A DNA stretch of 24,687 nt from Bacteroides sp. (lineage in GTDB: Bacteria; Bacteroidota; Bacteroidia; Bacteroidales; Bacteroidaceae), in the NCBI GenBank assembly GCA_021204375.1, contig JAJPZL010000076.1:1-24687 (forward strand), in the 5' to 3' direction. The notes beneath the pieces were generated by a model, which worked only from the letters and a program-made list of their open reading frames with translations, was not told where the DNA came from and ran no database searches. Below, piece after piece: positions 4,770-24,647 of the stretch (positions within the stretch are counted from its first letter, which is position 1; each line of letters begins with the position of its first letter). The position numbers and the translations under genes were made by a program.

Positions 4770-6371
4770 ATGAAAAAACTACTCATATTTATCTATTTAA
4801 TAGGAGCTCCTTTTTTTGAGATTTATCCGGCCGGCAGAATAGATTCTCTCCTGAAAGTCCTGGACCAGACACTCAGTGAACGGGCTGTATATGAAGAGAA
4901 AAAAGAGGCGGATATATGCGGATTGAAACAGCAAAAAAAATAAACTCCGGGACTTAACAAGTATATATTATATAAATAATGAGATCATTTCTCACTACCA
5001 GACCTTAATTTGTGACTCAGCCGAATGTTATATTCATGAAAATATAGAAATTACCCAAAAACTCGGGAATGATGCTCTGTTGAATGAAAGCAGGCTTGAA
5101 CTGGCGTTCGTCTACTCCCTCTCAGGTTTGTTCATCCAGGCTCACGGGATACTCAGGTCGGTTGTGTACGAGACTCTTCCCGGCTATTTAAAATGCAGGT
5201 ATTGCTGGACCTACATCCGATATTACGAAAACCTGATCAAATATACGGCCGACGCAAAATATTCCGGACCATATATGGAAGAAATTAATTTTTACCGGAA
5301 TGAAGTGATCGGTTTACTGGATAGTGAATCGGATGAATATAACAAAGAATATGCCTTCCGGTTGCAGGAGGCCGGTAATTATCAGGAGGCCCTTAAGTTA
5401 CTGCTTACCTCCTTTGGGAAAAAACAACCCGAAACACATGCTTATGCGATGGCAGCCATGAGCCTGGCAAAAGTGTATGCTTTGGCAGGGAATGAAGAAG
5501 AGGAAAAGTATTATTTACTGCTGGCCGCTATTACCGATACTCAGCTGGCCGTTAAAGAGAACGAGGCTTTACTTTCGCTGGCTACCAGGCTTTACCAGGA
5601 CGGCAGGACGAACCGCGTTTATACGTATATTAAAGTAGCCCTGGAAGATGCTAATTTTTTCAATTCCCGTTTTAAGAACAGCGTTATTGCACGGGTACAA
5701 CCCATTATTGAAAACACCTACCTGCAAAAAAAATAGAGCACCAGAAACAAAACCTGCGTCTGTATGCTGTTTTTATCACGTTGATCGTTATTGCCCTGGT
5801 CATCGCTTTGTACTTCAATTATAATCAAAAGAAGATCATCATACGGACCAGAGAGGTTCTTTTGCAGAAAAACGAAGAATTGATAGAACTTAATAAACGG
5901 CTGGATGAGGCGAATATCATAAAAGAGAAATACATCGGATACTTTATCAATCAAAACTCTGTTTACATTGACAAGCTGGAACGATACAGGAAAGATGTAA
6001 CCCTCAAGATCAAAGCGGGGCTGATCCATGAACTGTATAAATCCTCCTCCGGTAGTTTTGAGAAAGAGATGGAAGATATTTATACAAACTTCAATAAAGC
6101 CTTCCTGGAACTCTATCCTGACTTTGTAGAAAAATTCAATTTATTGCTAAAGCCTGATAAACGATTTAATCTACCGAAATCACAACTCAATGCTGAGTTA
6201 CGTATTTTTGCCCTGATCCGTTTAGGGATCACGGATGTGGCTCAGATCGCTTTGCAACTTCGCCTCTCCACACAGACAATCTATAACTATAAAAGCAAAA
6301 TAAAAAAGAACGCGATAACGGAAGGTGATCTGTTTGAAGAGCAGGTAAAAAAGATCGGTTCGCTTTTTTGA
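4770..6371 (+). pseudogene. TPR-transmembrane-HTH regulator (DUF6377 type), broken by two frameshifts in A8 tracts
   Basis: Probable membrane-bound PUL regulator. The N-terminus (MKKLLIFIYLIGAPFF) looks like a signal peptide. The family opening IDSLLKVLDQTLSERAVYEEKK follows, but the frame stops at 4941-4943 in an A8 tract (4933-4940). It resumes in another frame at about 4937 and runs through helical TPR-like repeats (best visible in 5080-5736), then breaks again at a second A8 tract (5726-5733, stop TAG 5734-5736). The third piece holds a transmembrane segment (AVFITLIVIALVIALYF, about 5766-5816), a coiled coil (5825-5940) and a C-terminal LuxR-like helix-turn-helix (AELRIFALIRLGITD, then LSTQTIYNYKSKIKK, 6194-6308). 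Joined, the pieces give about 533 residues, the usual length. Family members sit beside PULs; sensing by the TPR part and DNA binding by the HTH are inferred. Slippage at the A8 tracts could in principle restore the frame. Confidence 0.8.
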
Positions 6372-6399
6372 GCCGGAATTTGCCCTCCGGGACTCTTTT
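6370..6399 (+). terminator. Probable terminator after the regulator gene
   Basis: CCGGA (6373-6377) pairs with TCCGG (6386-6390). The stem is extended by GAG/CTC across a two-base bulge and is followed by TTTT. It overlaps the regulator stop codon and separates that gene from the GH38 gene. Confidence 0.5.
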
Positions 6400-6494
6400 C
6401 TATCTATTCATCCTTACCTTAAATATCCCGTTAAAACGTTACAGGATTCAGCAGTGACAACGCTTTTTCCTTTAAAAGTGCCTCTACGCTATTT

Positions 6495-6510
6495 ACTAAA
6501 TCCATTTAGT
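6495..6510. promoter_or_regulatory. Palindrome upstream of the GH38 gene
   Basis: ACTAAAT-CC-ATTTAGT is a perfect 7-2-7 dyad in the 291-base gap between the regulator and the GH38 gene. It may be an operator or a small hairpin. I see no coding sequence in this gap (6372-6662). Confidence 0.35.
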
Positions 6511-6529
6511 TTAAAAACATAAAACACTA

Positions 6530-6558
6530 ATTAACAGAGATATATCCTTTCTGTTAAT
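6530..6558. promoter_or_regulatory. Inverted repeat upstream of the GH38 gene, possible operator
   Basis: ATTAACAGA (6530-6538) and TCTGTTAAT (6550-6558) are perfect inverted copies separated by 11 bases; extending two bases inward gives 10 matches of 11. The site lies about 45 bases upstream of a candidate -7 box, a good place for a regulator bound by an HTH dimer. Function is inferred. Confidence 0.4.
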
Positions 6559-6603
6559 CTACTTTGCTCTCTACTACGGATATCACTCCTACCTTTTAGC
6601 TAC

Positions 6604-6611
6604 TACATTTG
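6604..6611 (+). promoter_or_regulatory. Candidate -7 promoter box for the GH38-GH92 unit
   Basis: TACATTTG matches the Bacteroidetes TAnnTTTG consensus exactly, 52 bases before the GH38 ATG. A TTTG occurs at 6563-6566, but the spacing (about 38 bases) is longer than the usual 19-21, so the -33 element is weak or absent, as at activator-dependent PUL promoters. Confidence 0.5.
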
Positions 6612-6662
6612 TAACAGCAGTTTTTTTGCATCATTCAGTCTGATACTTAATTTATATAAACC

Positions 6663-9206
6663 ATGAAACACACCTTTTTTATACTACTATCCTGTGTAGT
6701 ATATACCCTGGTCTACGGACAGCAAGTCTATTTTGTGGATAGATACCACGGAGGTATCTATGGTCATTATCCGGTGGAATGGAAAACCCGCTATATAACA
6801 GAGCTGCTCTCGGAATATCCCTGGTGGAGAATGGGCCTGGAAATAGAACCCGAGACCTGGGATACGGTAGCAGTAAGAACACCGGAAGATTATGAACGTT
6901 TCCGCAGGATCGCAACCGATAAACGGGTAGAATTCACCAACCCTGCTTATGCTCAACCTTACTGTTATAATGTATCCGGAGAGAGTATTATACGCCACTT
7001 TGGCTACGGTATCCAAAGTATTCGGAACCATTTTCCGGAAGTTGAATTTGTCACCTATGTGGTAGAAGAGCCGTGCTTTACCAGTAGCCTGCCACAAATA
7101 CTGACTCAATTTGGTTTCAGGTATGTCGTACTGAAATGTCTCAATACCTGTTGGGGAGGATACACGGCACCGTATGGGGATAAGTTGGTGAACTGGACCG
7201 GGCCGGATGGTAGTTCCATACTCACTGTACCCAGGTATGCCTGTGAGGAGCTGGAGCCTAATTCCGTATGGCAGACTACCGCCTGGGGCAATGAAACCGG
7301 TTACCTGCAAGCCTGTTTCAACGATGGAATAGAGCATCCGGTGGGTATGACTTATCAGGATGCGGGTTGGAGAAGAGTCCCCTGGATAGGTACGGGAGAC
7401 AGCATTAAAAATAACTCTGTCTATGTTACGTGGAGAGAATATTTTGAATAGATATCCAACGGTAGAACGGATGATAATTACCACCTTTCACAGGAAGATA
7501 TCCGTGTCAGCCTGATGTGGGGTAGCCAGATCCTGCAACGGATAGCCAGACAGGTACGTCAATCCGAGAACAACCTGGTCATGGCTGAGAAGATGGGTGT
7601 AATAGCCAATCTTTCTAACGGATACCGCTACAAACAGGAAGATCTGGACGAGGCATGGCGTACTTTAATGTTAGCCCAGCATCACGACTCATGGATCGTA
7701 CCTTATAATCGTTTACACGGACAGAAGACATGGGCCGATGAAATTCGGGACTGGACCCAGGCGACCAACCTGGCCTGCGGTAATATCCTAAAAGAAGCAT
7801 CGGATAGCTTTACAACCGGTAAAACCGGTACAAAGAGGACCTATCTCCGGGTATACAATACGCTGGGTGTTCCCAAGCGTGAAATAGTCTCTGCGGAACT
7901 GCCCGGGAACTTTACGGGAGTGAACCTGAAGGTTACGGATGCCACCGGTAAGAGAACAGAAACCTTTATTAAAACGGAAGATAGCAGATCGTTTCTCGTA
8001 TTCGAAGCAGAGGTGCCCGCTTTCGGATATGCTATCTATTATGTGGTACCCGATAAAAGAGCAGGAAACAGACGTAAGATCGAATCCGCAGCAGGAGAGG
8101 AGGAAATAGTACTGAAGAACAGTATGTACCGGATCGTCATTGATCCGTTAAAAGGGGGTGTTATTAAAAGCCTTATAGCTAAAAAAGAGGGTAACAGAGA
8201 GTTTTCAGATAACAACAGCGAATTTAACATCGGCGAACTACACGGGTTCTTCTATGACGAAGGTTTGTTCCATTCGTCCATAGAAAAGCCTGCCGTAGTG
8301 TCCGTCGTGCAGGAGAATCCTTTCGAAAAAAGTGTCCGGATAGAGGGAGAGATAGCTTCGCATCCTTTTACCCAGACCATTATCATCCAAGAAGGGCAAC
8401 GAAAAATAGATTTTGACCTTACTATCGACTGGAAGAGCAATGTGGGTATCGGTGAATATTATCAGACCGATGCCTACGCTAATAACCGCCGGGCCTTCTA
8501 CGACGACCGGTTCAAACTCAATGTACTTTTTCCCGTAGATCTGAATGCACCCGTTCTCTATAAAAATGCTCCTTTTGATGTTTGCCGCAGTGAACTGGAG
8601 AACACACATTTCAATACCTGGGATGGGATCAAACACACTATAATCTTAAATTGGGTGGATCTTACAAATCAAAAAGGTGAATATGGCTTTTCGCTGCTCT
8701 CAGACCACACGACTTCCTACTCGTACGGAGAAAATTTCCCACTTGGACTTACCGTACAGTTCTCCGGGAACGGCCTGTGGGGCCGTGATTATCCCATTGA
8801 AGGCCCGACCCATATCCGGTTTGCAGTGATCCCTCACAGCAAAGAGTGGAATACTTCTCATATTCATACTGAGAGCCTGCGATGGGATGAACCGCTCATT
8901 CCCTCCTTCCAAAGGGAGGCAAAGCCTGAAAATATTTCGTTGATAAATGTGGAGGAAACCGGTTATGAAATAGTAACCTCGTATTTGTGTGACGAAGGTA
9001 TCATTATGAGACTCTTCAATGCCGACGGAAATGATTCTCCCAAAGTTATAAAGTTCGGCACTTCTCTATCGAAAGTGGCAGAAACAGACCTGAACGGGAA
9101 TACATTATCTACTCTTCCTACCCTATATACAGAAGAGGGAACAGAGGTGGAAGTAGCCATGCCCCGTTTCGGATTGAAAACCCTGAAATTAATAACGAAT
9201 GAGTGA
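6663..9206 (+). pseudogene. GH38-type alpha-mannosidase, secreted, interrupted by one TAG
   Basis: Predicted alpha-mannosidase acting on alpha-mannosides in the periplasm or at the surface. A signal peptide (FFILLSCVVYTLVYG) is followed by the N-terminal catalytic domain (YHGGIYGHYP, about residue 28; VEEPCFTSSLPQILTQFGF, about residue 134). A stop TAG at 7449-7451 falls after WREYFE. The same frame continues at once with ISNGRTDDNYHLSQED, then SLMWGSQILQRIA, the metal-site motif AQHHDSW (7674-7694) and C-terminal beta-rich domains to the TGA at 9204-9206. Without the TAG the protein would be 847 residues, full length. The lost codon was most likely CAG or AAG. The segment that usually holds the GH38 nucleophile Asp (DP) reads EEP here, so the family fit is to a distant Bacteroidetes branch. 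The gene ends just before the GH92 gene on the same strand. Confidence 0.82.
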
Positions 9207-9276
9207 TAAAGAGGTGAAAAGAAAGCTTACTCAGAGAGGTAATATACAGTCTGTCAATTATAAACAAATAAAATAT

Positions 9277-11608
9277 ATGATACACAACCGGAACATTTTC
9301 AAGCTATTCCTGGTCTACCTGATCTTCGGGTTAACCTCCTGCTCGGAAACCCAGCGCAGCACCCATCCCCTATCACCGGCAGAGTATGTGAACCCCTTTA
9401 TCGGGGCAAGTACCAGCATTTCGGCCGCAGGAGCCTATCACGGGTTGGGTAAAACGTTTCCGGGAGCAACCACTCCTTATGGAATGGTACAGGTAAGCCA
9501 CAATACAATTACCGGAGGCGATAACAGCCCCGAATATAGTTATGAACACCAAACCATCGAAGGTTTTACTTTTACCCAGATGAGCGGAGTGGGTTGATTT
9601 AGGGATCTGGGCAACTTCCTGGTGATGCCGACAACCGGGGAGTTGAAAAAGATAGCCGGAAAAGAAGATGGAAGTATTACCGGGTATCGTTCCCGTTATG
9701 ATAAGAGTTCTGAAATGGCCCGGGCCGGATTTTACTCAGTAGAGCTTACCGATTATCAGATAAAGGCCGAAAGCAGCGCAACACCCCGATGCGGTATACT
9801 AAAATTTACATTCCCCGAAAATGAGACCTCCCGTATCCAGATAGACCTTGCCCGCAGGGTGGGCGGAACATCCGTTGAACAATACATACAGGTGGTAGAT
9901 GAAAACAGGATCCGGGGATGGATAAAATGTACTCCCGAAGGAGGGGGCTGGGGCGACGGAGAAGGGAACGTAGATTATACCCTATACTTCTTTGGTGAGT
10001 TCAGCAAACCGCTGGAGAACTACGGGTTCTGGAGTGCTGAGATCCCTGATAGCTGGAGCCGGAAAAAAGATGATGTGATCCGGGTTCCCTACCTGAAAAG
10101 GGTAGCGGAAGCTCCGGTAATAACCGGAAAAGATGAGCTCCGGGGTAAGTACCTGGGTTTTTATACGGAATTTTCAACCCGGAGCGAAGAAGAGGTGACG
10201 CTCAAAGTGGGGATCTCTTTTGTAGATATGAAAGGTGCGGAAAATAATTTCAATACTGAAATAGCTGCCTTAAGTTTCGAGGATGTAAAAGCAGAGGCTT
10301 ACCGACAATGGAATGAAGAGTTGAGCCGGATAAAAATATCCGGAGGAACCGATGATGAGAGGACCATTTTCTATACGGCCCTGTATCACACCATGATAGA
10401 TCCCAGGATATACACCGATGCCGACGAACGTTATACGGGAGGCGACGGTAAAATTTATTCTACCGGAGGTGCATTCACCAAACGGACTATTTTCAGCGGC
10501 TGGGATGTCTTCCGGAGTCAGTTCCCTCTACAGACCATCATTAATCCTGCCCTGGTCAGTGATGAACTGAACTCCCTCATTACACTTGCTGAATAAAGTG
10601 GCCGGGAGTATTATGAACGCTGGGAAATTATGAATGCCTATTCAGGATGTATGTTAGGGAATCCGGCACTCTCCATACTGGCTGATGCTTATATAAAGGG
10701 ATACGCACTTTTGATACGGATAAAGCATACAGGTATGCAAAGAATACCTCCAAAGTTTTCGGGAACGATAAACTGGGGTATACCCCTTCGGAACTCAGCA
10801 TCTCACATACCCTGGAATATGCTTATACAGACTGGTGCGTCTCGCAACTGGCAGCTGCACTTGGCAAGGAAGAGAATACGGCTGAATTCCAAAAGAAAAG
10901 CCAGGCGTATCGCAATATCTTTGATAAGGAGAAGGGCTGGTTCCGTCCCCGTAAAGCAGACGGCTCGTGGATGGCATGGCCCGAGAACGCCCGAACCACC
11001 GAATGGTACGGTTGTGTAGAGTCCAATCCCTATCAACAGGGTTGGTTCGTACCTCACGATATAGAGGGAATGGTGGAACTGATGGGTGGCAGGGAAGTTG
11101 TATTGGCAGACCTGGATGAACTCTTTGACAAGACCCCGGAGGATTTCTTATGGAACGATTATTACAACTATGCCAACGAGCCTGTACACTTTGTACCCTT
11201 CTTATTTAATAAACTGGAGGAGCCCTGGAATACACAAAAATGGAGCCGGCATATCTGTAAGAACGCTTATCGTAACGAGGTGGAAGGTATTGTAGGTAAC
11301 GAAGATGTAGGACAGATGTCGGCCTGGTATGTATTGACAGCCTCGGGTATCCATCCTTCCTGTCCGGGAGATACCAGGTTTGAGATCACTAGCCCTCTAT
11401 TTGACCGGATAGAATTCCGCCTGGACCCTGAGTATGCAAGCGCAGAAAATTTACGGTAATAGCTCACGATAACTCTCCTTCAAATATATACATACAAAGG
11501 GCCGTGCTCAACGGAGAAGAGTATAACAGGCGTTACCTGGACTTTTCCGATATAGTTCGCGGTGGGGTACTGGAAGTATATATGGGAGATACCCCTCAGA
11601 AACAATGA
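9277..11608 (+). pseudogene. GH92 alpha-mannosidase lipoprotein, four lesions
   Basis: GH92 enzymes are calcium-dependent inverting exo-alpha-mannosidases. Start chosen at 9277 because it gives a lipoprotein signal ending LTSC; an upstream ATG at 9199 overlaps the GH38 stop. The N-domain opens with EYVNPFIGAS and PGATTPYGMVQVS. Lesions: TGA at 9595-9597 in GVG*FRDLGNF (probably Trp or Cys); TAA at 10594-10596 in LAE*SGREYYERWE (probably Gln); a single-base loss at about 10700 (after ADAYIKG, resuming IRTFDTDKAYRYA); a single-base loss at about 11454 (ENLR, then IAHDNSPSNIYIQ). Restored length is about 777 codons, full length. The general acid Glu is kept in YANEPVHFVPF (codon 11178-11180), and the GNEDVGQMSAW motif (11295-11327) carries the catalytic-base region. 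Likely co-transcribed with the GH38 gene. A frameshifted 40-codon tail, ending with the TGA at 11606-11608, matches the GH92 C-terminus. Confidence 0.9.
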
Positions 11609-11664
11609 GGGATATAGAACGCTTTAATTCCGCTTAATTTTCTGTTTTACAATCCTTTTTCACG

Positions 11665-11690
11665 GATGCAGTGATTATAAAATCAGCATC
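11665..11690. other. Hairpin in the gap before susC
   Basis: GATGC (11665-11669) pairs with GCATC (11686-11690), and TGATT (11672-11676) pairs with AATCA (11681-11685), leaving a two-base bulge and an ATAA loop. No T-run follows directly, so it is not a standard terminator. It may still mark the 3' end of the GH92 transcript. Confidence 0.35.
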
Positions 11691-11693
11691 AAC

Positions 11694-11851
11694 TTAGTTC
11701 ATGTAGAACTATTCTCTTTTTGCTCCCCTTATAATATGCATAGTCATCTATAAGAGGCTTCTGTTTTTCTTCAGGATTCTCTTTTCCGCTAAATCTCCCT
11801 CTCTAAGGCATTCCTGCAACGTTTCTGTTTACCAAGTTCTGCATGAACTAA
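11694..11851. repeat. Paired 17-bp inverted repeats upstream of susC (twin operator or small mobile relic)
   Basis: TTAGTTCATGTAGAACT (11694-11710) and AGTTCTGCATGAACTAA (11835-11851) are inverted copies matching at 16 of 17 bases. Each arm is itself a dyad, AGTTC-N5-GAACT, and the two centres are 139 bases apart. The left arm is followed by TTCTCTTTTT, so it could also end the GH92 transcript. Two readings fit: two binding sites for one dimeric regulator that loops DNA before susC, or the ends of a 158-bp MITE-like element. I see no clear target-site duplication. The rest of the 335-base gap (11609-11943) is AT-rich and holds no gene. Confidence 0.5.
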
Positions 11852-11943
11852 TCAAAAAAAGAGACGATTTAAAAATAAAATGCCTTTAATGTTAGCCTGC
11901 TAATAAGGTACAACTTTTTATTAATTAAAAATTGTTTACTAAT

Positions 11944-14900
11944 ATGAAGAAAAAACAGAGAGCGGATGCACGGAGTGCCATGTGCAAAGTTGTAAAACTG
12001 ATGTTTGCCCTGACACTGCTGTTATTGAGCAGTGTTCAGGCGAAAGCAACCTCTACTATCCTGTCACAGACAGAAAGAACCATTTCCGGTTTGGTCAAAG
12101 ATGATAGTGGTGAACCTGTAATTGGAGCGGCTGTTGTGGTAAAAGGAACGACCATAGGCACCACCACGGATATTGACGGCCTTTTTACCTTGAAGATACC
12201 CGCCAATGCCGGAACCTTGCAAGTAACTTATATGGGAATGAAAACCATGGAACTTCCCATCGGTGACAAAACGCAGTTCAATGTAGTAATGGAACCGGAT
12301 TATGTGCTGATCGACGATGTAGTGGTAATAGGATACGGAACCTGTTCCAAAAAAGATATGTCCATAGCGGTGAGTTCCGTAAAAAGCGAAGAGCTCAACG
12401 ACCGCCCATCCGCATTTAACATTATGCAGAGTGTTGCCGGAAAAGTAGCCGGGGTAACCAATGTATCCATGTCCGGCAGACCCGGTGGTTCTTCCGTCCT
12501 GCGTGTTCGCGGTATGGGTTCCATCAATGCAGGCAAAGATCCTATTTATGTACTTGACGGTGTGATCGGTGTGGATCCTGATATTATAAACTCTGCCAAC
12601 GTTGAATCGATCGATGTACTTAAGGATGCGGCTGCAACAGCTATGTATGGTGCGCAAGGATCGAACGGGGTTGTGCTTATCACCACCAAAAAAGGGAAAA
12701 ACGGGAAAGGTACTGTTACCTACGACGGTAAGATGAGATTCGGCTTTATGGGCCGCAAACTCGATATGCTGAATGCAGATGAATATATGGAGGTCCAGCG
12801 ACGCAGCTATGCCTACAGCGAACAAACCATGCCTCATCTGCTCACTGCCGACGAAAAACTCTTCTATTATGCTAAAGATGCTTCTGGTAATTATCAGTAT
12901 GATGAGAACGGCCTGCTGATCGCTTCGCCCAAATACAATACTGACTGGCAGAAGGAGATAACCCGTACAGCCATTACCAATGACCACATTGTATCTTTTG
13001 CATCGGGTACCGATAACACCAGTGTTTACGCCAGTGTGGCCTATCAGAACTATGAAGGGGCGATGAAGGGTTCCGAATACGAACGCTTCTCGGGTACTGT
13101 AAATGTAAACAGCAGGATCAAAGAGTGGCTACGGGTTCAGGTAGTAGGAACTGTGGGGAGCCAAAAGGGTAATAATAACGACATGGAGAGTCATTTCGGT
13201 CAGGGGCCCTCCGTGGTATGATCGAAATGCCACCTATCGTACCTGTCAAATACGAAGATGGTACCTGGGGACGCAAAGGTGACTATCCATACTCCGAAGA
13301 GGGAGAGAATCCCCTGCTTTTGCTACGTGATAGAAAGGACGAATAGAAATCCAATTTCTCCGTATTTAACCTCAATGCGACCCTTGACCTCACTAAGAAA
13401 CTGACACTGACTCTTCAGGGTGACTACCAGCAGAATAACAAGAAAGAGATGAAGTATGCCAAGGCCGGTCTGCTGGATGTAAGCGAGAATAACGGTGGAT
13501 ACGCCGATATTTACAACTACGATATCCAGAAACTGACCAGCGAGAACTACTTCACCTACAGCGATGAATATTTTAACGGACAATTCAGTTCTAACTTTGT
13601 GCTGGGAGCCAGTTGGTATTACAAACGGGACGAAAGTTCCTCTTCCGGTTCTGAACAGTATTTTGATGATTTCTTTGATTACCATAATCTCTCTGCAGGA
13701 ACAACCTGGCACGAACCGACATCGGAGATGAACCAGAATACCATGAACTCCTACTACTTCCGTATGAACCACAGCTTCCGTGACAGGTATCTGCTGGGAG
13801 CTACTTTCCGTGTGGACGGTGCCTCAAACTTCGGTATGAATAATAAGTATGGTTACTTTCCCTCTGTTTCAGCCGGATGGCGTATCTCGGAAGAGAGCTT
13901 TTTTGAGTCCCTGCTCGGTGTGGTCAACCAAGCGAAGCTAAGAACCAGTTATAGTTTGGTAGGGAATGCCTCCATACCCAATCACAGAACCATCTCCCAA
14001 TACAGCAATGGTTCAACCATTTTCGATAATACCCTGAACTCGTATGTAATTCTCAGCAACCTGGGTAACAAAGATCTTAAGTGGGAATCATCCAGCCAGT
14101 TCAACATCGGGTTAGACCTTAACTTCTTTAACAACCGCCTGGAGTTAATTATGGATTACTATACCAAAACCACCAAAGACCTGTTGTTCGAAAAACAGAT
14201 ACCGATCACTACCGGATACGCTACCACATGGACCAACCTGGGTAAGATACGGAACAACGGTTTTGAGACTACCCTTACCACACGTAACATCCACAACCGC
14301 GACTTTATGTGGCAAACAGATCTTGTCTATTCTACCAATAAAGTGAAGACGATAGATATCAACGACGAAACCATCGACCTGGGCAACGACGTCATTGCCC
14401 GCGAAGGGATAGACTGGGCTTCTTACTATGTATATAAAAGGCTCGGTACATGGGGCTTGATGAGGTAGAAGAGGCAGCTAAATATGGTAAGAGACCGGGT
14501 GATATCAAATACGAAGATGTGAATGGTGACTATAAGATCGACGAGGAAGATCGGCAGCTTATGGGAGCCGGTCGTCCGAAAGGTAACCTTACGATGGTAA
14601 ATACTTTTACTTATAAAGGTTTTTCTCTTATGGTGGATGTTAACTACGTATATGGCTTCAAGATCATGAGTATCACCCACTCCATGGGTGAGAACAGGCC
14701 TTTGTATAGTAACAGTGTAAAAGATATACTCAAAGCGTGGACACCCGAGAACCAGAACACTATGGTTGCCGCACTGCGTTTGCCGTCAGATCCTTTCTTC
14801 GGCGAGAACGAGAAAGATTCATACATGCTTCACAAAGGAGATTTCGTAAGGATCCACAATATCGGCCTCTCCTACTCCTTTAGTCCCAAACTCCTCAGAC

Positions 14901-15082
14901 ATATTCTTGAGGTCAGCAACCTGTCACTTGGAGTAAATGTCGAAAATCTGGCATTATTTACCCAGTATCCCGGATACGATACGGAGATGGGAATATTCAA
15001 TACAGATAATGGTCAGAGTATCGATTTCTACTCCTACCCACGGCCGACAACCGTTACTGCTAACATTAAGATCACTTTCTAA
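11944..15082 (+). pseudogene. susC: SusC-family TonB-dependent outer-membrane transporter, three lesions
   Basis: Would import oligosaccharides across the outer membrane as a barrel capped by SusD. Start at ATG 11944, with a signal peptide (LMFALTLLLLSSVQAKA). Next come a carboxypeptidase-regulatory-like domain (ISGLVKDDSGEPVIGAAV), the plug (VVVIGYGTCSKKDMSIAVSSV; IYVLDGV; LKDAAATAMYGAQGSNGVVLITTKKG) and the barrel, ending in the beta-signal TANIKITF. There is no N-terminal STN domain, so anti-sigma signalling is unlikely. Lesions: a single-base loss in GGGGCCC (about 13204-13209), giving a stop at 13219; TAG at 13344-13346 in DRKDE*KSNFSVF (CAG lost); a single-base loss at about 14453-14458 in LGTWG/LDEVEEAAKYG, giving a stop at 14466. 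Restored, it would have about 1,046 residues, a normal SusC length. susD starts nine bases after the stop. Confidence 0.93.
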
Positions 15083-15091
15083 AAACATAAT

Positions 15092-16615
15092 ATGATGAAT
15101 TATATGAAAAAGATATATTCAACTATAACCCGGCTTATGGCTCTGGCGGTCATCCTCTCTTCCTGTGATTCCTTCCTGGAAGAAAACCACAAGACATTCC
15201 TCAATCCCGACTCCTATTATCAGAACGAAAAGCAGGCACTTGCCGCCGTTAACGGTATATATACTTTTGTGGACGATATCATGGATTCGGATATTGAGCC
15301 CGATTCGCAGAGTTTTATTTTCCTCGAATTTATGCACGGCTATGGTGAGCGGATACGCGGACAAGGAACCCAGGACCTTGTTCAGGCCAACAGCCTGCTT
15401 ATTGCCGATAACAACAGCTATGTGCAAAGATTCTGGGAAACAGCCCACAAAGCCATTGAGAACTGTAACAGCGTTATCGAAGGTATTGAAGGAATGGAAG
15501 AAGGCACGATAGATGAAAATAAAAAGAACCAGTACCTGGGCGAAACTTATTTCCTTCGCGGTTATTTCTACTTTAACTTAGTAAGGCTCTACGGACAGGT
15601 ACCGCTGAAACTTACACCAACCAAAGATGTAACCAACACAGCCATCGAGTTGTCATCCGCAGAGGATGTCTACAACCAGATCGATGAAGATATGGCTAAA
15701 GCCGGTGAACTGATGGAGAACCTGGAGTGGACCAATGCCGGCGGCCGTGTAACCAAGGGAACTGTGAAGTCTATGCATGCCAAGGTTTTACTGACTATGG
15801 CCGGGTATCCTCTTCAAAAAGGAACCGAATATTATACCAGGGCCTACAATATGGCAAAACAGGTATACAACAGCAACGCATTTCAACTGTTCGATACTTA
15901 CGAAGAACTGAGAACTGTGGAAAACTCCGGAGAGATCATCTGGTCTGTTCAGCGGGAAGCCGACCAGGCAGGTAATCCGCTCCATAGTGCCCTGCTGGCC
16001 TATCCTGCTCCTGCAAAATCGGTATCAGCCAGCGCCGCTTACGGCGGAGCGATCACTGTTACCCAACTCTTCTTCAATATCTACCCCCAGGGTGATAAGC
16101 GTACGGAAGAGCGAGAGTTCTATTATACGGAGCAGGAAGCCCTTGATGGTTCGGGGATGGTAGACCTCGGAAGACTCTATATCTATAAGTACTGGGATCA
16201 GGAAGCTGCAGAGACCGGAAAATCAGGTGCTGATTTTACCCTCCTGAGATATGCCGATGTTCTTTTAATGGTGGCTGAAGCAAAAGCCAGTGCTGACGGT
16301 GGTACTACAACCGATGCCGATGCCATTGAAGTATACTATTTAGTCAGAAGCCGCGCACTGCCCGAAGAGGGAAAACTAACCTCTATCACTGTTGATAAGG
16401 TATTGCAGGAACGTTTTTGGGAACTGGCTTTCGAAAACCAGACCTGGTACGATATGGCAAGAACCCGCAAAGCTTTGCATGCTGTTACAGGTCAGATCGT
16501 AAATCTGATCGGATACCAGACGCCAAGCCACACAGCACCCTTTACCGAGGTAAGTTTGCTGTTGCCGTACCCGATCCGGGAAAAGAGATTAAATCCCAAT
16601 TTGAAGAGAGACTGA
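15092..16615 (+). CDS. susD: SusD/RagB-family surface glycan-binding lipoprotein
   Basis: Outer-membrane lipoprotein that lids the SusC barrel and binds the glycan. The signal peptide ends at lipobox ILSSC (Cys25). Typical SusD features follow: FLEENHKTFLNPDSYYQNE, AAVNGIYTF, YLGETYFLRGYFYFNLVRLYG in the TPR-like helices (about residues 147-167), LLRYADVLLMVAEAKA (about 386), RFWELAFENQTWYDMARTR (about 437), and the standard end LLPYPIREKRLNPNLKRD. The 507 residues are full length and no lesion is seen, although the partner susC is broken three times. An overlapping frame reaching 16632 also looks protein-like but is a shadow, because the SusD C-terminal signature is in this frame. ATGs also occur at 15095 and 15104; 15092 is the outermost and is nine bases from the susC stop. 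Confidence 0.95.
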   Translation: MMNYMKKIYSTITRLMALAVILSSCDSFLEENHKTFLNPDSYYQNEKQALAAVNGIYTFVDDIMDSDIEPDSQSFIFLEFMHGYGERIRGQGTQDLVQANSLLIADNNSYVQRFWETAHKAIENCNSVIEGIEGMEEGTIDENKKNQYLGETYFLRGYFYFNLVRLYGQVPLKLTPTKDVTNTAIELSSAEDVYNQIDEDMAKAGELMENLEWTNAGGRVTKGTVKSMHAKVLLTMAGYPLQKGTEYYTRAYNMAKQVYNSNAFQLFDTYEELRTVENSGEIIWSVQREADQAGNPLHSALLAYPAPAKSVSASAAYGGAITVTQLFFNIYPQGDKRTEEREFYYTEQEALDGSGMVDLGRLYIYKYWDQEAAETGKSGADFTLLRYADVLLMVAEAKASADGGTTTDADAIEVYYLVRSRALPEEGKLTSITVDKVLQERFWELAFENQTWYDMARTRKALHAVTGQIVNLIGYQTPSHTAPFTEVSLLLPYPIREKRLNPNLKRD

Positions 16616-16634
16616 TACCAACAAGCAGCTAACC

Positions 16635-18017
16635 ATGAAATGTGACTCCAGGCCTATAGTGTTATCCGTGCTCTTACTGGGCTTCTTCTTCTCTTGCTCT
16701 GACAGGGATGGTAGTAAAAGGGAAAACCCCTTTGATACCGGAGATGACGATACGTTGATCAGGATTGCCACTACCTCCAATGCCGATACCTTATACCTGT
16801 GGTGGGAACTTACCGACCCGGAGCTCAGTTTCGATCACTATTGCATTGAACTGGACAAACCGGCCACAGTCGAAACCGTCGGAAGGGACGAAACGATCTC
16901 CTACTTTACCCGCGTGCCGTACAATGAGCCTGTATCCGTAACTATCTCCTTGATGGAGGATGACCAAACGGTCAGTACCAGTACCACTCAGGTAAAGATC
17001 GATGGCCTGGATAAGGTGATCGCAGGCGTTATCATCCACGACCGCGGTAGTGTAACCGCAGGCGATGGAATGTACTCCATCCTCCTGCCCGACGGCAGAA
17101 GTATCTTCCTGATGGGCGACTCTTACGTGGGAACGGTCACAGGCGGACAGCATCCGACATCCGACCCCATGTATCGCAATACATACATTGTGTATGACAA
17201 CGGTAAGATGAGTGCCATTTACGGGGCCGGAGGTAACAAAAATGCTTCTGCTGCTGTACCTCCCGGTTACCCCGACGAGAAAAAATAGTACTGGCCGGGA
17301 TATGGATTTGTGGAGGGTGATAAGTTGTACATCTTCCAGACCCTGATGTACCAGGGAAGGGATGATATGTGGGGCTTTATGTATGAAACTACCCATATAC
17401 TGGAGTATAACCTTCCCGGGTTGGAGTTAAACCGGATAACGCCTGTTCCATTCAACGGCTCAACAGATATCCATTACGGAATGGCCGTACTGAACGACGG
17501 TGACCACACTTATATCTATGCACAAGTGGATATACGGAACGATCTGGATCCTATTACCGAAGTGCTGGTAGCACGGACCACTACAGGCGATCCGTATAAC
17601 AACTGGCACTATTACAACGGTTCAGGCTGGAGCAGAGATCCATCGGATACCGTGAAGCTGGAAGGGTTAGCTTCTGTGCCTGTTTCGTCACAGTTCAATG
17701 TGTTCAGGCTGCGGGATAAATATGTATTACTTACGCAGAAGAAGACATTTAACTCTGGTGAGATCTATACTTTTATTGCAGAAAGTCCTACAGGGCCCTG
17801 GAGGAATAAACAGCTTATTTTTAAGACCTACGAACAGGATATTCCACATTTGTTTACCTACAACGCAATGGCTCATCCACAGTTTGAGAAAGAAGGGATG
17901 ATCCTTGTTAGTTACAATGTGAATACCGAAGTATTTGCGGAGCAATTCAGCGATGTAAGTACCTATCGTCCCCGGTTCTTCTGGGTGGATATAGATAAAA
18001 TCATGAATGAAAAATGA
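16635..18017 (+). pseudogene. Surface lipoprotein with a DUF5005/DUF4185-like domain, interrupted by one TAG
   Basis: Follows susD after 19 bases. The lipoprotein signal ends FFFSC (Cys17-18 region). A beta-sandwich-like domain (to about residue 130) precedes a larger domain with YSILLPDGRSIFLMGDSYVG, RNTYIVYDNGKM and MAVLNDGDHTYIYAQ, which resembles DUF5005/DUF4185 proteins thought to be beta-propellers related to glycoside hydrolases. TAG at 17286-17288 falls in PDEKK*YWPGYGFVEGDKLY and the frame continues unchanged to the TGA at 18015; CAG is the likely ancestor. Restored length is 460 residues. From position in the PUL it is probably a surface glycan-binding or glycan-cleaving protein. 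The domain name is from memory of similar sequences and is less certain than the lipoprotein and PUL assignments; the activity is unknown. Confidence 0.7.
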
Positions 18018-18534
18018 AGAGTCTGAAAACTCAAAATTTATAAACTCAAAAACTCAAATAATAAAGAAATATGCATTAATACTCACAGTGATTTCGGTTT
18101 TGTCTGCCCTTGCAGGCTGCGATGACAACAACCGTACTAGAATGTCATCAGATTACCCTTCTGATCATGATATAAATTATAGTTTATTCCACGTTTACCA
18201 GTATGATGAGGTAAACATTAACGGGATCGATATCGCTCAGAAGTTTGACTTTTTTGATACCTTCAAACTCATACTGCACTATACTGACGGTAAGATCAGT
18301 GCAGTAACGTTCAATAACGAGGATATATCTTTTTTCCCTTACAGCTATGAGATTCCTGCCGGTAAGGTGGATGCATACCTGGATACGACCGTGCTTCCCA
18401 ACGAATTGCGCATAACCGGATCGGGACCGGATCTCGTTATCGCCTATTTTGTGGATGGTGAGTTCAGCATTCCTTTCAAGCTGGATTGCCCGTCGGTGGA
18501 TTATAAATATACCTTCAAGAGTGTTAATCAATAA
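18007..18534 (+). CDS. Small lipoprotein of unknown function in the SusCD operon
   Basis: I do not recognise this 175-residue protein. The start at 18007 overlaps the end of the preceding gene by 11 bases. After a 21-residue polar leader come a hydrophobic stretch (YALILTVISVLSALAGC) with lipobox LAGC (Cys38) and then a beta-rich globular part (FDTFKLILHYTDGKISAVTF; ELRITGSGPDLVIAYFVDG). No internal stop or frameshift. The position between the DUF5005-like and DUF4961-like lipoproteins suggests a further surface glycan-binding protein or an assembly partner of them. It is one of only two intact genes in the PUL; its short length makes escape from mutation by chance plausible. Confidence 0.75.
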   Translation: MKNEESENSKFINSKTQIIKKYALILTVISVLSALAGCDDNNRTRMSSDYPSDHDINYSLFHVYQYDEVNINGIDIAQKFDFFDTFKLILHYTDGKISAVTFNNEDISFFPYSYEIPAGKVDAYLDTTVLPNELRITGSGPDLVIAYFVDGEFSIPFKLDCPSVDYKYTFKSVNQ

Positions 18535-18546
18535 AACTATACCTGT

Positions 18547-19562
18547 ATGAAATTCATGAAAAAATATAAATATTTACTGTCATTGCTGGTACTATCATTC
18601 CTTGTTGCCACTTGTATGACCATTGAAGAGATCATTCACCCTGACGATGCGCAGGTAGACAGCGATATCAACATTACCGTAAAGATAAAGCTGGTTGCCG
18701 AGACCGATGGCAGCAGCAAGCTGGCCTTTGGTATATTAATGCCTAAAGCCTGGAATGTGAGTGAGCATGCAACAGTGACCCTTACCACCGAGGCGGGATT
18801 TGCCGGTAATACGGTTACCAACGAACCCATGACACTGATGAGTGCCACAGATACAAATCCGTCTGACGGCAAATCCTGGCCTGCTTCGTTTCAGAGCCGT
18901 TTTGGGGTACTGGGTAACACGGGTCCTGTGGAATGGGTGGTGTTTAAATCGGCTACTACCTTCCAGATCGATGATAACATTGAAGTACAAAAACCGTAAC
19001 GGGTACTGTGAATATAAAACTTCACACCGGTACGCGCGCGGTCAAGTTCTATGCGGGATATACCTTTTGCGGAGAGTCGACCGGCTTCGACGGCGAAAAA
19101 TACCCGGATGAGGATGTAGTAGCAGCTAAACTGCTGGAAGTTACCGGAGGTGATGAACCTCAGATGGATTTCACATCTGATCCTGCGGTATCGTACGTTC
19201 CTGCGACTTTTGGTTTCGGTGATATATTCTCCATCCGCTACAATGAGCCCAACTATATAACCGAAGGCGGCCTGAAAGGGGGTGATGCGTATATGTATGC
19301 AAAGGTATTGTACATGGAAGGCGGAATAGAGAAGGAGAAGGTCATAGACGAGATCTCCGACAAAACCCTGATGGAGCCTCTGGAGGATCTGGGTTCGGTA
19401 ACCTCTTTCCAGAAGTATATCTATCCGAGAGATCTCTTTGAGCTATCAAAAGATGCTACGATCTTAGCGATCGAGGTGCACTTTACCAATAATGATAAAA
19501 GTATCATCATACTGGATAGTGAAACCGATCATAATTTTGTTGTTGAGGAGACTTGTGAATAA
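18547..19562 (+). pseudogene. DUF4961-type surface lipoprotein, one frameshift
   Basis: The N-terminus has a signal with a lipobox-like end (LVATC, about Cys23). The first piece carries NITVKIKLVAETDGSSKLAFG, MPKAWNVSEHATVTLTT and GNTGPVEWVVFKSATTF, which I associate with Bacteroidetes DUF4961 proteins found after SusD. At 18989-18993 an A5 run makes the frame end QKP*; adding one A restores EVQKTVTGTVNIKLHTG, and the protein continues through VKFYAGYTFCGES, VPATFGFGDIFSIRY, YMYAKVLY and SFQKYIYPRDLFEL to the TAA at 19560. Restored length is 338 residues, normal for the group. The role is probably surface glycan binding (inference from position). The second piece has no good start of its own, so a split gene is less likely than a frameshift. 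Confidence 0.78.
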
Positions 19563-19584
19563 AAAGTGAAGACCCCCCAGGAAA

Positions 19585-19729
19585 AAAGAGTGTTCCGGAG
19601 GATTCTTTAAGCCCCTTTACTCATGAAGATGTTCCGGGAACCCTCCTCCGGCCGACCCCTCTCCGAAGGATGGTAAGCCAGCCGGTCACCGTACCTGAAG
19701 AGCGGAGGAGAAGTCCCGGAACACTCTTT
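19585..19729. repeat. 145-nt structured element with 14-bp perfect inverted ends and a competing inner stem
   Basis: AAAGAGTGTTCCGG (19585-19598) is the exact inverse of CCGGAACACTCTTT (19716-19729). Inside, TGTTCCGGGA (19630-19639) is the exact inverse of TCCCGGAACA (19714-19723), and CTCCTCCG (19643-19650) of CGGAGGAG (19703-19710), so an 18-bp inner stem competes with the outer one for the same 3' strand. It fills most of the 208-base gap between the DUF4961 gene and the GH78 gene and is more GC-rich than the other gaps. It may be a cis-regulatory RNA, an intercistronic stabiliser or processing site, or a dispersed palindromic or MITE-like repeat. It matches no riboswitch I can recognise, and no U-run follows. 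Confidence 0.6.
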
Positions 19730-19770
19730 CCATCACTCTGTATAGTGCACCTGATCAAACGTATAATACC

Positions 19771-22432
19771 ATGAAAAAAGTCCTTTCCCTATTGGCAGTC
19801 TGTTTGATAGATATTCATATCCTCACAGCCTCTTCCATCCTTATTACTGACCTGCGATGTGAGAGTCTTACGGATCCGCTGGGTATTGATAACACCCTTC
19901 CGCATTTCAGCTGGAAGATACAATCCACGAACCCCGTGCAACCACAGTATTATGAGATCCAGGTGGCATCAGACAGTATACGGCTGATACAGAGCACTCC
20001 TGATCTATGGAATTCAGGTAAGACCCGGAGACCGGCTTCTGTGATGGTCCCTTATGAAGGAAAAGAGTTAAGACCGCGCATGCTCTGTTACTGGCGGGTC
20101 CGTATATGGGATGAAAAAGGAGAAGCATCCGACTGGAGTCCTATCGGGCGGTTTGCTGTGGGCATTCTGGAAAATGATAAACTTCAGGGAGCGTATATAG
20201 GACTTGCTCCAGGCCACGGGGATGTCCGTGCTCCGCTCCTGAGGAAAACCTTTACAATCGATCTATTGGCCACTACTTTCCTGCATGTTAGTTCCCTGGG
20301 TTATCATGAAGCTTATATCAATGGTATCAAAGCGGACAGCAGAGTACTGGCTCCGGTCACTTCTCAATTGGATAAACGTTCACTGATCGTAACGTATGAT
20401 ATTACTCCCTACCTGCAACAGGGAGAGAACGAGATCGTATTATGGCTGGGACAGGGATGGTATAAGAGAACAACCTTCGGAACCGATTACGACGGCCCCC
20501 TGGTAAAGGCGGAAATGGATATATTACAAAACGGGAACTGGCAACAAATCCTGACGACCGACACTTTGTGGAGCGGTCGTGAAAATGGATATTCGGATAC
20601 TGATACCTGGCAGGCCCTCCGGTTCGGCGGAGAAAGAATAGACGGACGGTTACTTCCCGGGGATCTGTCGGCTGATGGACTGAATAAACTGGAATGGTTC
20701 CCTGTAACAGCCATACCTGTTTCCAACCACAGAGAAACACCACAGATGTGCGAACCGGATAAAATACAGGAAGTACTACCCCCCCCCACCAGAATATTCA
20801 GGTCCTTAGTGAGAACTCCTGGTTGGTGGATATTGGAAAAGTAATAACCGGATGGTTTGAATTACAGCTGCCACCACTCCCGGAAGGACATGAAGTAATA
20901 GTGACCTATACAGACGATCTTACATTAGATCCCAACTTTACAGACCAAGGAGAAAGCGACATTTATATTACTTCCGGCAAGAAAGGCGATATTTTCTGCA
21001 ATAAATTCAATCATCATGCTTTCCGGTATGTAAAAATAACCAATTTGTCCTATAAACCTGAAAGCAGACAGGTCAAAGCGTATCTTATTCATGGAGATTA
21101 CAAACCGACCGCCACTTTCGAATATTCAGATACAGACCTGAATGCCATACATGCTATGATCCAATACACGTTGAAGTGCCTTACTTTCAGCGGGTATATG
21201 GTAGACTGTCCTCACATTGAACGTGCCGGCTACAGAGGCGACGGCAATGCATCTACCCAGGCACTGCAAACCATGTACGACGTTTCTCCTGTTTTCCTGA
21301 ACTGGTTGTAGTCCTGGAACGATGCAATGCGCAAAGATAGAAGCCTGCCGTATGTAGCACCCAATTACATAACTACCGACGGCGGTCCTTACTGGTGCAG
21401 CTTCGTGGTATTTGCTCCCTGGAGAACGTATGTAAATTACAACGACTTACGCTTCATAGAACGATACTACGACGCAATGAAACAATGGATGGAATATGTG
21501 GATAAATATACGGTTAACGGATTGCTGGAACGATGGCCCGACACGGAATACCGGAGCTGGTATCTGGGCGACTGGCTCGCCCCTGCCGGTGTGGACAGCG
21601 GGAATGAATTCTCCATTGACCTGGTTAATAACTGTTGCATCAGTGAATGTTTAGGTACTTTGCAAAAAATAGCTACTGTATTGAGAAAACCGGAAGAGGC
21701 TAAAGAGTTTGCTGAGCGTAAAGCAGCATTGAACCGGCATATACATGAAAGATTCTACAATCCGGAAGAGGGTATCTATGCAACCGGTTCGCACCTGGAT
21801 ATGTCGTACCCTATGTTGGTAGGTGCAGTTCCCGGATCCATATACAAGAATGTGAAAGAGAAAATGATCGGATTGAGCCAGGCTCATTATAACAATCATA
21901 TTGCCGTAGGATTGGTTGGTGTTCCTGTACTTACCGAATGGGCTATTCAAAACAAAGAGACAGACTTTATGTACACTATGCTGAAACAGCCTGACTATCC
22001 GGGATACCTGTACATGTTAAACAACGGAGCTACCACCACCTGGGAATATTGGAACGGGGAACGCAGCCGGATACACAATTGTTACAACGGTATCGGCAGT
22101 TGGTTCTACCAGGCTGTAGGAGGTATCCGGCCGGATGAAGATCATCCTGGGTATCAACACATCTATATCGAACCCCAGATCCCCCAGGGAGTTATCTGGG
22201 CAAAGACCACTAAAGAGACACCGTATGGAACCGTCACAGTAAACTGGGAACTGGCAAAGAATCAACAGGACATGTATGTATCCCTGCCGGCAGGGGTACA
22301 AGCCAGTGTGGCAATTTCAGAAAAAGCGATGGGTTGCACAGTGAACCGGAAAAAACAGAGATTAAAAGAGAAAAGTTGCTTTTAAGCACAGGCAGCTATG
22401 AGATCACATTTACATTCACCCCAAACGAATAA
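19771..22432 (+). pseudogene. GH78 alpha-L-rhamnosidase, secreted, three lesions
   Basis: Predicted to remove terminal alpha-L-rhamnose. A signal peptide (VLSLLAVCLIDIHILTASS) is followed by the N-terminal rhamnosidase beta domains (DLRCESLTDPLGIDNTLPHF; FLHVSSLGYHEAYINGIKAD; EIVLWLGQGWYKRTTFG). The frame breaks in a C9 run (20779-20787), stopping at 20842, and resumes as NIQVLSENSWLVDIGKVITGW. The (alpha/alpha)6 domain has VDCPHIERAGYRGDGN (about 21201-21248), then TAG at 21309-21311 in FLNWL*SWNDAM (CAG lost), then YLGDWLAPAGVD and TTWEYWNGERSRIHNCYNGI (22033-22092) with the usual base Glu. A third lesion, a one-base loss at about 22335-22345, causes an early stop at 22383; the corrected frame ends at TAA 22430 (LLLSTGSYEITFTF). 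Restored length is about 887 residues. The GH92 ATG follows after one base, so the two were co-transcribed. Confidence 0.9.
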
Positions 22433-22433
22433 G

Positions 22434-24647
22434 ATGAAGAAATTACAGGTACTATCTATTATCTTTCTATTTACACTTGCCCTACCTGCACAGGTTAAAG
22501 ACCTGGTACACTATGTAAATACTTTGTAGGGAACCGATTCTCATTTTGACCTGAGTTACGGGAACACCTATCCGACCACCGGTATACCCTACGGTATGCA
22601 TACGTGGTCGGTACAAACCGGAAAAAACGGAGAAGGGTGAAAATATCAATATTCCATACATACAATCCTGGGGTTCTGCCAGTCGCACCAATGCAGTCCG
22701 TGGGTAAGCGATTACGCCGTTTATTCTTTGATGCCCGTAGCATGGAAACTGGTTGTAAATCAGGAAGAGAGAGCTACCGGATTCAGCCACGATAATGAAA
22801 CAGCTAAACCTCATTATTACAAAGTAACGCTGGATAATGGTATTACTACCGAGATGGCTCCTACAACACAGGGCGTACACCTGCGCTTCTCCTTTCCTAA
22901 AAACGAAGAGGGTTACCTGATACTGGATGGCTATACGGATATAAGTGAGATCCATATCGACCCGGATAAAAGACAAATTACCGGTTGGGTTAACAATCAA
23001 CGTTTCGTGAATGAACCCTCTACCTTCCGGAACTACTTTGTGGTACAGTTCGATCAACCCTTTGACTCCTGGGGGATTTGGGAAAATCAGGAAGATAAGG
23101 TTTTCGCCGGACAACTTACAGTGGCAGGGAAAGGGTACGGGGCATACATCCGGTTCAGGAAAGGAACCACCGTACAAGCCAAAGCAGCCTCCTCGTACAT
23201 CAGTTATGAACAAGCCCGGATCACGCTCGGCCGTAAATTGGGCAAAGATAAAACCCTGGAAGTAACCAAAGCCCGCGGAGCAAAGACCTGGAATGAACTG
23301 CTAAACAGAGTCCTGGTAGAAGGAGGAACAGAAGAGCAGATGAGGACATTCTACTCCTGCTTGTTCCGTGCCAACCTTTTCTCCCGTAAATTTTACGAAC
23401 GCGATGCCGACGATCAGCCTTATTACTACAGTCCTTATGACGGGAAAATATATAGCGGTTATATGTACACCGATAACGGCTTCTGGGATACTTTCCGTTC
23501 ACAGTTCCCCCTGACAAATATTCTCCATCCCACTATGCAGGGACGCTATATGAATGCGCTACTGGATGCATACGACCAATATGGATGGTTACCTTCGTGG
23601 TCGGCCCTGGGAGAGACCGGAGGTATGATAGGTAACCATGCGATCTCATTATTGACCGATGCCTGGGTAAAAGGTATCCGCACCTTCGATCCTGAAAGGG
23701 CCCTGCGTGCCTACGCGCACGAAGCAATGAATAAAGGTCCGTGGTGAGAAGCCAACGGACGCCAGGGATGGAAAGAGTACTTCCAGTTAGGATATGTACC
23801 CTACCCGGAATCCCTGGGTTCTACGGCACAAACACTGGAGTATGCCTATGATGATTTCTGCGGATATCAATTAGCAAGGGAAACCGGAAATAAATTCTAT
23901 GAAGAGATATTTGCCCGGCAAATGTACAATTACCGGAATGTATTTGATCCTTCAACCGGATTCATGCGCGGCAGAGGAACAGACGGCCGATGGCAGGAGC
24001 CCTTTGATCCGTATGTTTTGGGTGGCCCTTATTATGAAGGAAATGCCTAGCATTATACATGGTCGGTGTTTCACGACGTACAGGGATTGATCAACTTGTA
24101 TGGAAACAACGAAAAATTCACCACCAGGATGGATTCGGTATTTACTGTACCCAGTGTGATCAAACCTGGTACATACGGCGGTGTTATCCATGAAATGAAA
24201 GAGATGGAACTGGCCGGTATGGGACAATATGCTCATGGCAATCAACCTATACAGCACATAATCTTTTTGTATAGTTATGCCGGGCAGCCCTGGAAAACCC
24301 AATATTGGGCACGTCAGATCATGGACAGGCTCTACAACTCTACAGAAAGAGGTTATCCAAGCGATGAAAACCATGGAGGCATGTCGTCCTGGTACGTATT
24401 GAATGCCCTGGGAATTTACAGTGTCTGTCCCGGAACGGACGAATATGTGCTGGGCAGTCCGCTTTTTCCCAAAGCAACAATTACGATGGAAGATGGCAGT
24501 AAGTTCGTTGTTGAAGCTGTTGAGAACAACAAAGAGAATGTTTATATTCAATCTGCCACACTTAACGGGGAACCGCTGACCAGGAATTGTATTACCTATA
24601 AAGATATAATAAAGGGTGGAACGCTACGTTTGGAAATGGGTGATTAA
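22434..24647 (+). pseudogene. GH92 enzyme with HGNQP motif (possible mannose-1-phosphodiester mannosidase), four in-frame stops
   Basis: Secreted GH92 protein, with a signal peptide (VLSIIFLFTLALPAQ) and no lipobox. Four nonsense codons interrupt one otherwise continuous frame: TAG 22527-22529 in YVNTL*GTDSHF (Gln lost), TGA 22638-22640 in NGEG*KYQYS (Trp), TGA 23745-23747 in KGPW*EANGRQGW (Trp or Gly) and TAG 24048-24050 in YEGNA*HYTWSVFHD (Trp). There are no frameshifts. Restored length is 737 codons, full length. Conserved pieces are YPTTGIPYGMHTW, SHQCSPWVSDYA, QTLEYAYDDFCGYQLA, YAGQPWKTQYW and DENHGGMSSWYVLNALGIYSVCPG. The general-acid Glu of canonical HGNEP is Gln (codon 24243-24245, HGNQPIQH), and the base region reads DEN rather than DED. 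In characterised GH92s the Glu-to-Gln change goes with cleavage of mannose-1-phosphodiesters, where the leaving group needs no protonation. That specificity is inferred here. It starts one base after the GH78 stop. Confidence 0.9.

Follow-up and report, generated by a model that had tools for sequence, protein, structure and literature searches.

The disrupted PUL in the window (the whole stretch of 24,687 nucleotides analysed here) is best understood as one visible part of a recent erosion that reaches dispensable genes across the genome, in a lineage whose core genes stay under purifying selection, a reading to which we assign a probability of about 0.78. The lineage of the species probably belongs to the GTDB genus Bacteroides. 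Its genome (G000) is represented by a fragmented MAG of 3.30 Mb in 506 contigs with 79% completeness, and genome reduction is not visible at this size, listed members of the genus ranging from 1.6 to 7.1 Mb.

The PUL and its lesions

All genes of the window lie on the forward strand. Upstream stand nifJ, encoding pyruvate:ferredoxin oxidoreductase (11–3448; POR_N, E = 2e-71; open, truncated at the 5' end where the contig begins), and an ldhA-like gene for a D-2-hydroxyacid dehydrogenase (3629–4627; 2-Hacid_dh_C, E = 2.5e-50; open). The ten genes of the PUL follow on the same strand, beginning with a DUF6377 regulator-like gene (4770–6371), whose two pieces both match DUF6377 (E = 4.8e-16 and 5.5e-55) and which has frameshifts at about 4933 and 5726. 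Next are a GH38 alpha-mannosidase gene with Glyco_hydro_38N and 38C domains (6663–9206; one stop at 7449) and a first GH92 gene, GH92a (approximate limits 9277–11617; Glyco_hydro_92N and 92), broken by stops at 9595 and 10594 and by frameshifts at about 10698 and 11446. The SusC-like TonB-dependent transporter (11944–15082; Plug, CarbopepD_reg_2 and TonB barrel) has frameshifts at 13206 and 14452 and a stop at 13344. It is adjoined by a SusD-like lipoprotein (15092–16615; SusD_RagB, E = 2.3e-23), open in the window, then by a DUF5005/DUF4185-like gene (16635–18017; stop at 17286), a small lipoprotein-like frame (18007–18534; open, no Pfam family matched) and a DUF4961 gene (18547–19562), recognisable in both pieces around a frameshift at 18989. 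A GH78 alpha-L-rhamnosidase gene (19771–22432; Bac_rhamnosid domains), with frameshifts at 20784 and 22349 and a stop at 21309, and a second GH92 gene, GH92b (22434–24647; Glyco_hydro_92N and 92 in pieces), with stops at 22527, 22638, 23745 and 24048, complete the cluster.

Taken gene by gene, these lesions (2 in the regulator, 1 in GH38, 4 in GH92a, 3 in SusC, 1 each in the DUF4185/5005 and DUF4961 genes, 3 in GH78 and 4 in GH92b) sum to the 19 that the original prediction had placed in eight genes including the regulator, ten of them in-frame stops and nine frameshifts. The wider claim that the entire PUL is disrupted holds for eight of the ten genes, the SusD gene and the lipoprotein frame being open. 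With adjacent SusC and SusD homologues and glycoside hydrolase genes (GH38, GH92, GH78 and GH92) on the same strand, the locus is a PUL by descent, and most of its uptake and breakdown genes are no longer intact.

As TAG makes up six of the ten stops and is also the commonest stop within the SusC-barrel matches discussed below, the stops might be read through, by a recoded TAG or a suppressor tRNA. We reject this because TGA, TAA and the nine frameshift lesions occur as well. TAG furthermore terminates GH92a in its last, shifted frame and stands at normal-looking gene ends in three other contigs (L020, L026 and L028), so that read-through can be given almost no credence.

As had been predicted, neither nifJ nor the ldhA-like gene has a lesion in the window, and both are likewise free of stops and frameshifts in the related genome described below. 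The further argument that several lesions would be expected there by chance fared less well: at the lesion density of the PUL, the Poisson probability of none in these two genes is 0.014, and the local contrast taken alone is therefore only moderate evidence.

A sister genome with its own lesions

Nearest among ten named loci is that of the MAG 'Bacteroides sp. C.2_15' (locus L001, genome G031), hereafter the sister, which is approximately 92% identical and carries this PUL with its gene order conserved. Comparison with the sister locus, which the original prediction had proposed as a check, bore out nearly every lesion. The aligned sister PUL has sense codons at all ten positions of the window stops, and an indel separates the two copies at eight of the nine frameshifts (5726, 10698, 11446, 13206, 14452, 18989, 20784 and 22349); the remaining one, at about 4933, lies outside the sister's contig and was read from the reading frames of the window alone. 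Seven of the nine frameshifts fall within a homopolymer that is four or more bases long in either the window or the sister copy. The GH38 protein, broken in the window, is full length in the sister (847 aa), and the next five matches measure 844–862 aa. In a search with this protein, identities above 75% were seen only for the window fragment (P0024) and the sister protein (P0001; 89%) among the best 120 of 2053 passing matches (7999 candidates scored).

The sister PUL is itself damaged. It has stops of its own in GH92a (one), SusD (one) and GH78 (two). Indels of its own, assigned by which copy keeps the open frame, lie within SusC and the DUF4185-like gene and also towards the ends of three genes, those for the regulator, GH78 and GH92b. 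In its regulator, compared from window position 5103 onwards, the frame is altered only close to the C-terminal end. A further sister stop, at window position 18034, was not counted because it lies upstream of the likely lipoprotein start. No stop position is common to the PULs of window and sister, and the listed indels differ between the two; we therefore rejected the idea that both species inherited the lesions. The sister species is decaying separately, and the best reading is that dispensable genes are being eroded in parallel in the two lineages.

As a separate observation, DNA from GH92a to the DUF4961 gene (window 9373–19558) is 76–80% identical to loci of Proteiniphilum and Petrimonas (L002–L006). 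Among 158 genomes of its own genus, with two places scored in each, the whole SusC–SusD stretch was matched only in the sister and in one other genome (G073; 71%). Transfer of the GH92a–DUF4961 stretch between families is possible.

Decay elsewhere in the genome

In-frame stops were counted by hand in the matches to two protein families, one gene being able to give several matches. For the SusC barrel (PF00593), 16 of 37 matches in G000 contain stops, the window's own SusC among them, against 8 of 50 in the sister and 0 of 31 in a relative (G003). For ABC transporters (PF00005) the figures are 7 of 49, 3 of 57 and 0 of 42, respectively, one of the three sister matches being sub-threshold and covering the beginning of Der, a gene that is intact. 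Among the matches listed, none from any other genome had an in-frame stop. One ABC transporter match in G000 (contig C201, 17852–18298) has four in-frame stops, and this pseudogene looks older than those of the window.

A codon model was applied to evenly spaced contigs of G000, of which 20 were taken, three were masked and 17 were left, amounting to about 3% of the genome. With strict settings it called 23 lesions in 91.1 kb of coding sequence, compared with three in 135.7 kb of 17 control loci (two of which, L012 and L040, largely overlap); with loose settings the calls were 45 in 91.9 kb and 12 in 136.2 kb. Part of the model's training came from the sampled contigs and some of the control loci. 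On the window, the strict model recovered nine of the 19 lesions and called no other, and the 20 loose calls comprised 15 of the 19 lesions and five gene junctions. When the 23 strict calls were read individually, 18 were judged real, four were taken as gene junctions (two in L020, one each in L025 and L033) and one (L023) was unclear. The genes broken in these contigs are accessory ones: A2M, SusC, SusD, GH2, GH88, RND, outer-membrane efflux (OEP), SRAP and P-type ATPase genes. Contigs picked for decayed matches (n = 6) gave 16 strict lesions in 42.2 kb, and contigs picked for core genes (n = 9) gave nine in 46.9 kb. In the two of the latter that were inspected for this (L071 and L074) the lesions fall outside the core genes. 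Within the family searches and the contig sample, many recognisable pseudogenes stand alongside a spared core.

These results bear directly on the original interpretation, in which this PUL alone had decayed, either after its glycan disappeared or after the regulator was lost. Eight of its ten genes, including the regulator, are indeed broken next to intact neighbours. However, unrelated accessory genes are broken elsewhere in G000, and the sister PUL has separate lesions with a regulator altered only near its end. Lesions in unrelated dispensable genes, together with the separate decay of the sister, suggest that the lineage is shedding genes broadly and has not simply lost one food source; loss of the regulator could hardly have caused the stops in efflux pumps and ATPases. 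We regard this explanation as very unlikely, and a glycan-specific story is not needed.

Core genes and the possibility of sequencing error

A lesion rate in core genes similar to that of the PUL had been named as one observation that would count against true decay. This comparison was run in part, on the GTP_EFTU family (PF00009), a core set that was not hand-chosen and whose genes we named from their sequences, and it showed no such rate. Seven of its eight genes in G000 have no lesion (one of these is partial), and that for RF3 (prfC) is frameshifted (L068, about 1517–1666). RF3 is a dispensable gene, and the sister copy is open; none of the sister's 11 PF00009 matches contains a stop. Five of these genes, those for EF-G, LepA, IF2, Der and Era, together span 9.1 kb and have zero lesions and no significant excess of substitutions on the window branch, where the density in the PUL (19 per 19.9 kb) would predict about nine lesions. 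The model also called 64 frames whole; 20 larger ones, a chosen set, were annotated and include an FtsK-like protein, class II ribonucleotide reductase, GcvP, fumarase, HflX and RF1, as well as five without a family and one fragment of a disrupted SusC.

Error in sequencing or assembly of a low-quality MAG was weighed as a source of the lesions. G000 is fragmented and incomplete, most indels of the window lie in homopolymers, and nifJ and ldhA also show a nonsynonymous excess (see below). Error would nevertheless hit all genes alike, which fits badly with the five intact translation GTPase genes. Moreover, the sister, a separate assembly (coverage 9.5), shows the same kind of lesions, with its PF00009 matches free of stops. 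On this comparison of core GTPases, uniform sequencing error was judged unlikely as the main cause.

Selection and timing

Pairwise dN/dS (omega) between window and sister is 0.14 over the ten PUL genes (0.06 to 0.23 by gene), 0.08 for nifJ and 0.065 for the ldhA-like gene. The PUL genes were therefore functional during most of the period after the two species diverged, and their lesions look like a late decay of genes formerly under purifying selection, in agreement with the prediction that the decay is recent. Counted by branch in six PUL genes with three Proteiniphilum-group outgroups, nonsynonymous and synonymous changes number 98 and 135 on the window branch versus 47 and 130 on the sister branch (p = 0.001). 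The corresponding counts for the lesion-free nifJ and ldhA are 37 and 92 versus 20 and 105 (p = 0.017), and for EF-G, LepA, IF2, Der and Era 50 and 177 versus 45 and 187 (p = 0.49), single genes varying in their nonsynonymous changes (LepA, 13 on the window branch versus 3; IF2, 15 versus 24). Pooling the seven core genes gives 87 and 269 versus 65 and 292 (p = 0.045). The nonsynonymous excess on the window branch is strong in the PUL and weak in core genes, where it could come from error or drift. The sister branch has little such excess despite its lesions. At a background omega of 0.06, which was our choice, the unconstrained share would be roughly a sixth for the window branch and a twentieth for that of the sister, and relaxed selection is confined to a recent period.

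Mismatch repair and a possible course of events

In the sister, mutS and mutL have one in-frame stop each (L056, 379–381; L066, 2185–2187), and both genes are open in the relative G003. Searches of G000 yielded neither MutS1 nor MutL, only a MutS2-like protein (our label) whose frame is open over 829 aa. The entire mutL region of the sister, neighbours included, is also unmatched in G000; the absence of mutL is therefore uninformative, as the assembly may lack the region. It is conceivable that deficient mismatch repair was the primary driver, producing a clade of hypermutators in which selection cannot keep pace with the breakage of dispensable genes. The stops in both sister genes, slippage in homopolymers at seven of the nine frameshifts and the dominance of transitions are consistent with it. 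The spectrum of nonsynonymous changes is less so: GC>AT accounts for 81 of 139 on the window branch and 32 of 69 on the sister branch, AT>GC for 29 and 17, GC>TA for 13 and 3, and GC>CG for 10 and 2, respectively. Loss of mismatch repair typically leaves a spectrum unlike this GC>AT-heavy pattern with its GC>TA and GC>CG changes, and synonymous counts, 227 on the window branch and 235 on the sister's, are alike. Unfiltered mutation in general accounts for the spectrum of the window branch better than does a defect in mismatch repair alone, and we regard a repair-driven origin as possible yet doubtful.

Under the preferred reading, recent erosion of dispensable genes, selection on accessory functions would have weakened late on the window branch, over roughly a sixth of it, perhaps owing to small population size or to a stable, nutrient-rich or host-bound niche. 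Slippage and C:G-to-T:A changes would then no longer have been purged. More speculatively, a loss of mismatch repair like that suggested by the stops in the sister may have hastened the process. We would also suggest, tentatively and with some reserve, that two or more Bacteroides species form a clade in which mismatch repair has been lost and which is taking its first reductive steps by parallel loss of glycan-use, efflux and transport genes, possibly while newly bound to hosts or protists.

Bacteroides are regarded as glycan generalists. A sister pair independently eroding glycan use while its core is selected would, if true, offer a replicated view of a generalist starting genome loss, and could show whether loss of mismatch repair precedes or follows the first pseudogenes.

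Comparison with known systems

The locus shares with SusC/SusD-type PULs the SusC gene beside SusD, the GH38, two GH92 and GH78 genes and a regulator-like gene, in an order common to the sister and partly to Proteiniphilum-group loci; unlike them, it has eight of ten genes broken. Upstream of SusC, 17-bp inverted repeats enclose a segment of 158 bp (11694–11851; sister L001, 6595–6753), which has one orientation in the window and the other in the sister; no such segment was seen where three Proteiniphilum/Petrimonas loci (L003, L004 and L006) match this stretch. Bacteroidales invertible promoters are short segments flanked by inverted repeats, and the segment, short, upstream of SusC and found in both orientations, is a putative invertible switch of this promoter type. 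It differs from them in that TAnnTTTG, the Bacteroides -7 promoter motif, does not occur exactly in the window segment or in the sister segment, whichever strand is read.

No published description of such decay in this lineage was found in the titles and abstract openings of the literature searched, and none of it gave a habitat for the sister MAG. The kind of decay is known; the group, Bacteroidota, is unusual. In its many recognisable pseudogenes beside a spared core, and in its recently relaxed selection, the decay resembles recent genome degeneration of the host-restriction type. Sodalis-allied endosymbionts of lice are reported to have many inactivated genes that are still recognisable, a universally intact core and convergent inactivation in many lineages (PMC11137140). 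Recognisable broken genes, a guarded core and parallel loss are common to both cases. For the Sodalis-allied bacteria, association with insects is established and a free-living relative served as the comparison (PMC11137140), whereas the present lineage belongs to the Bacteroidota and its genome size is not clearly reduced.
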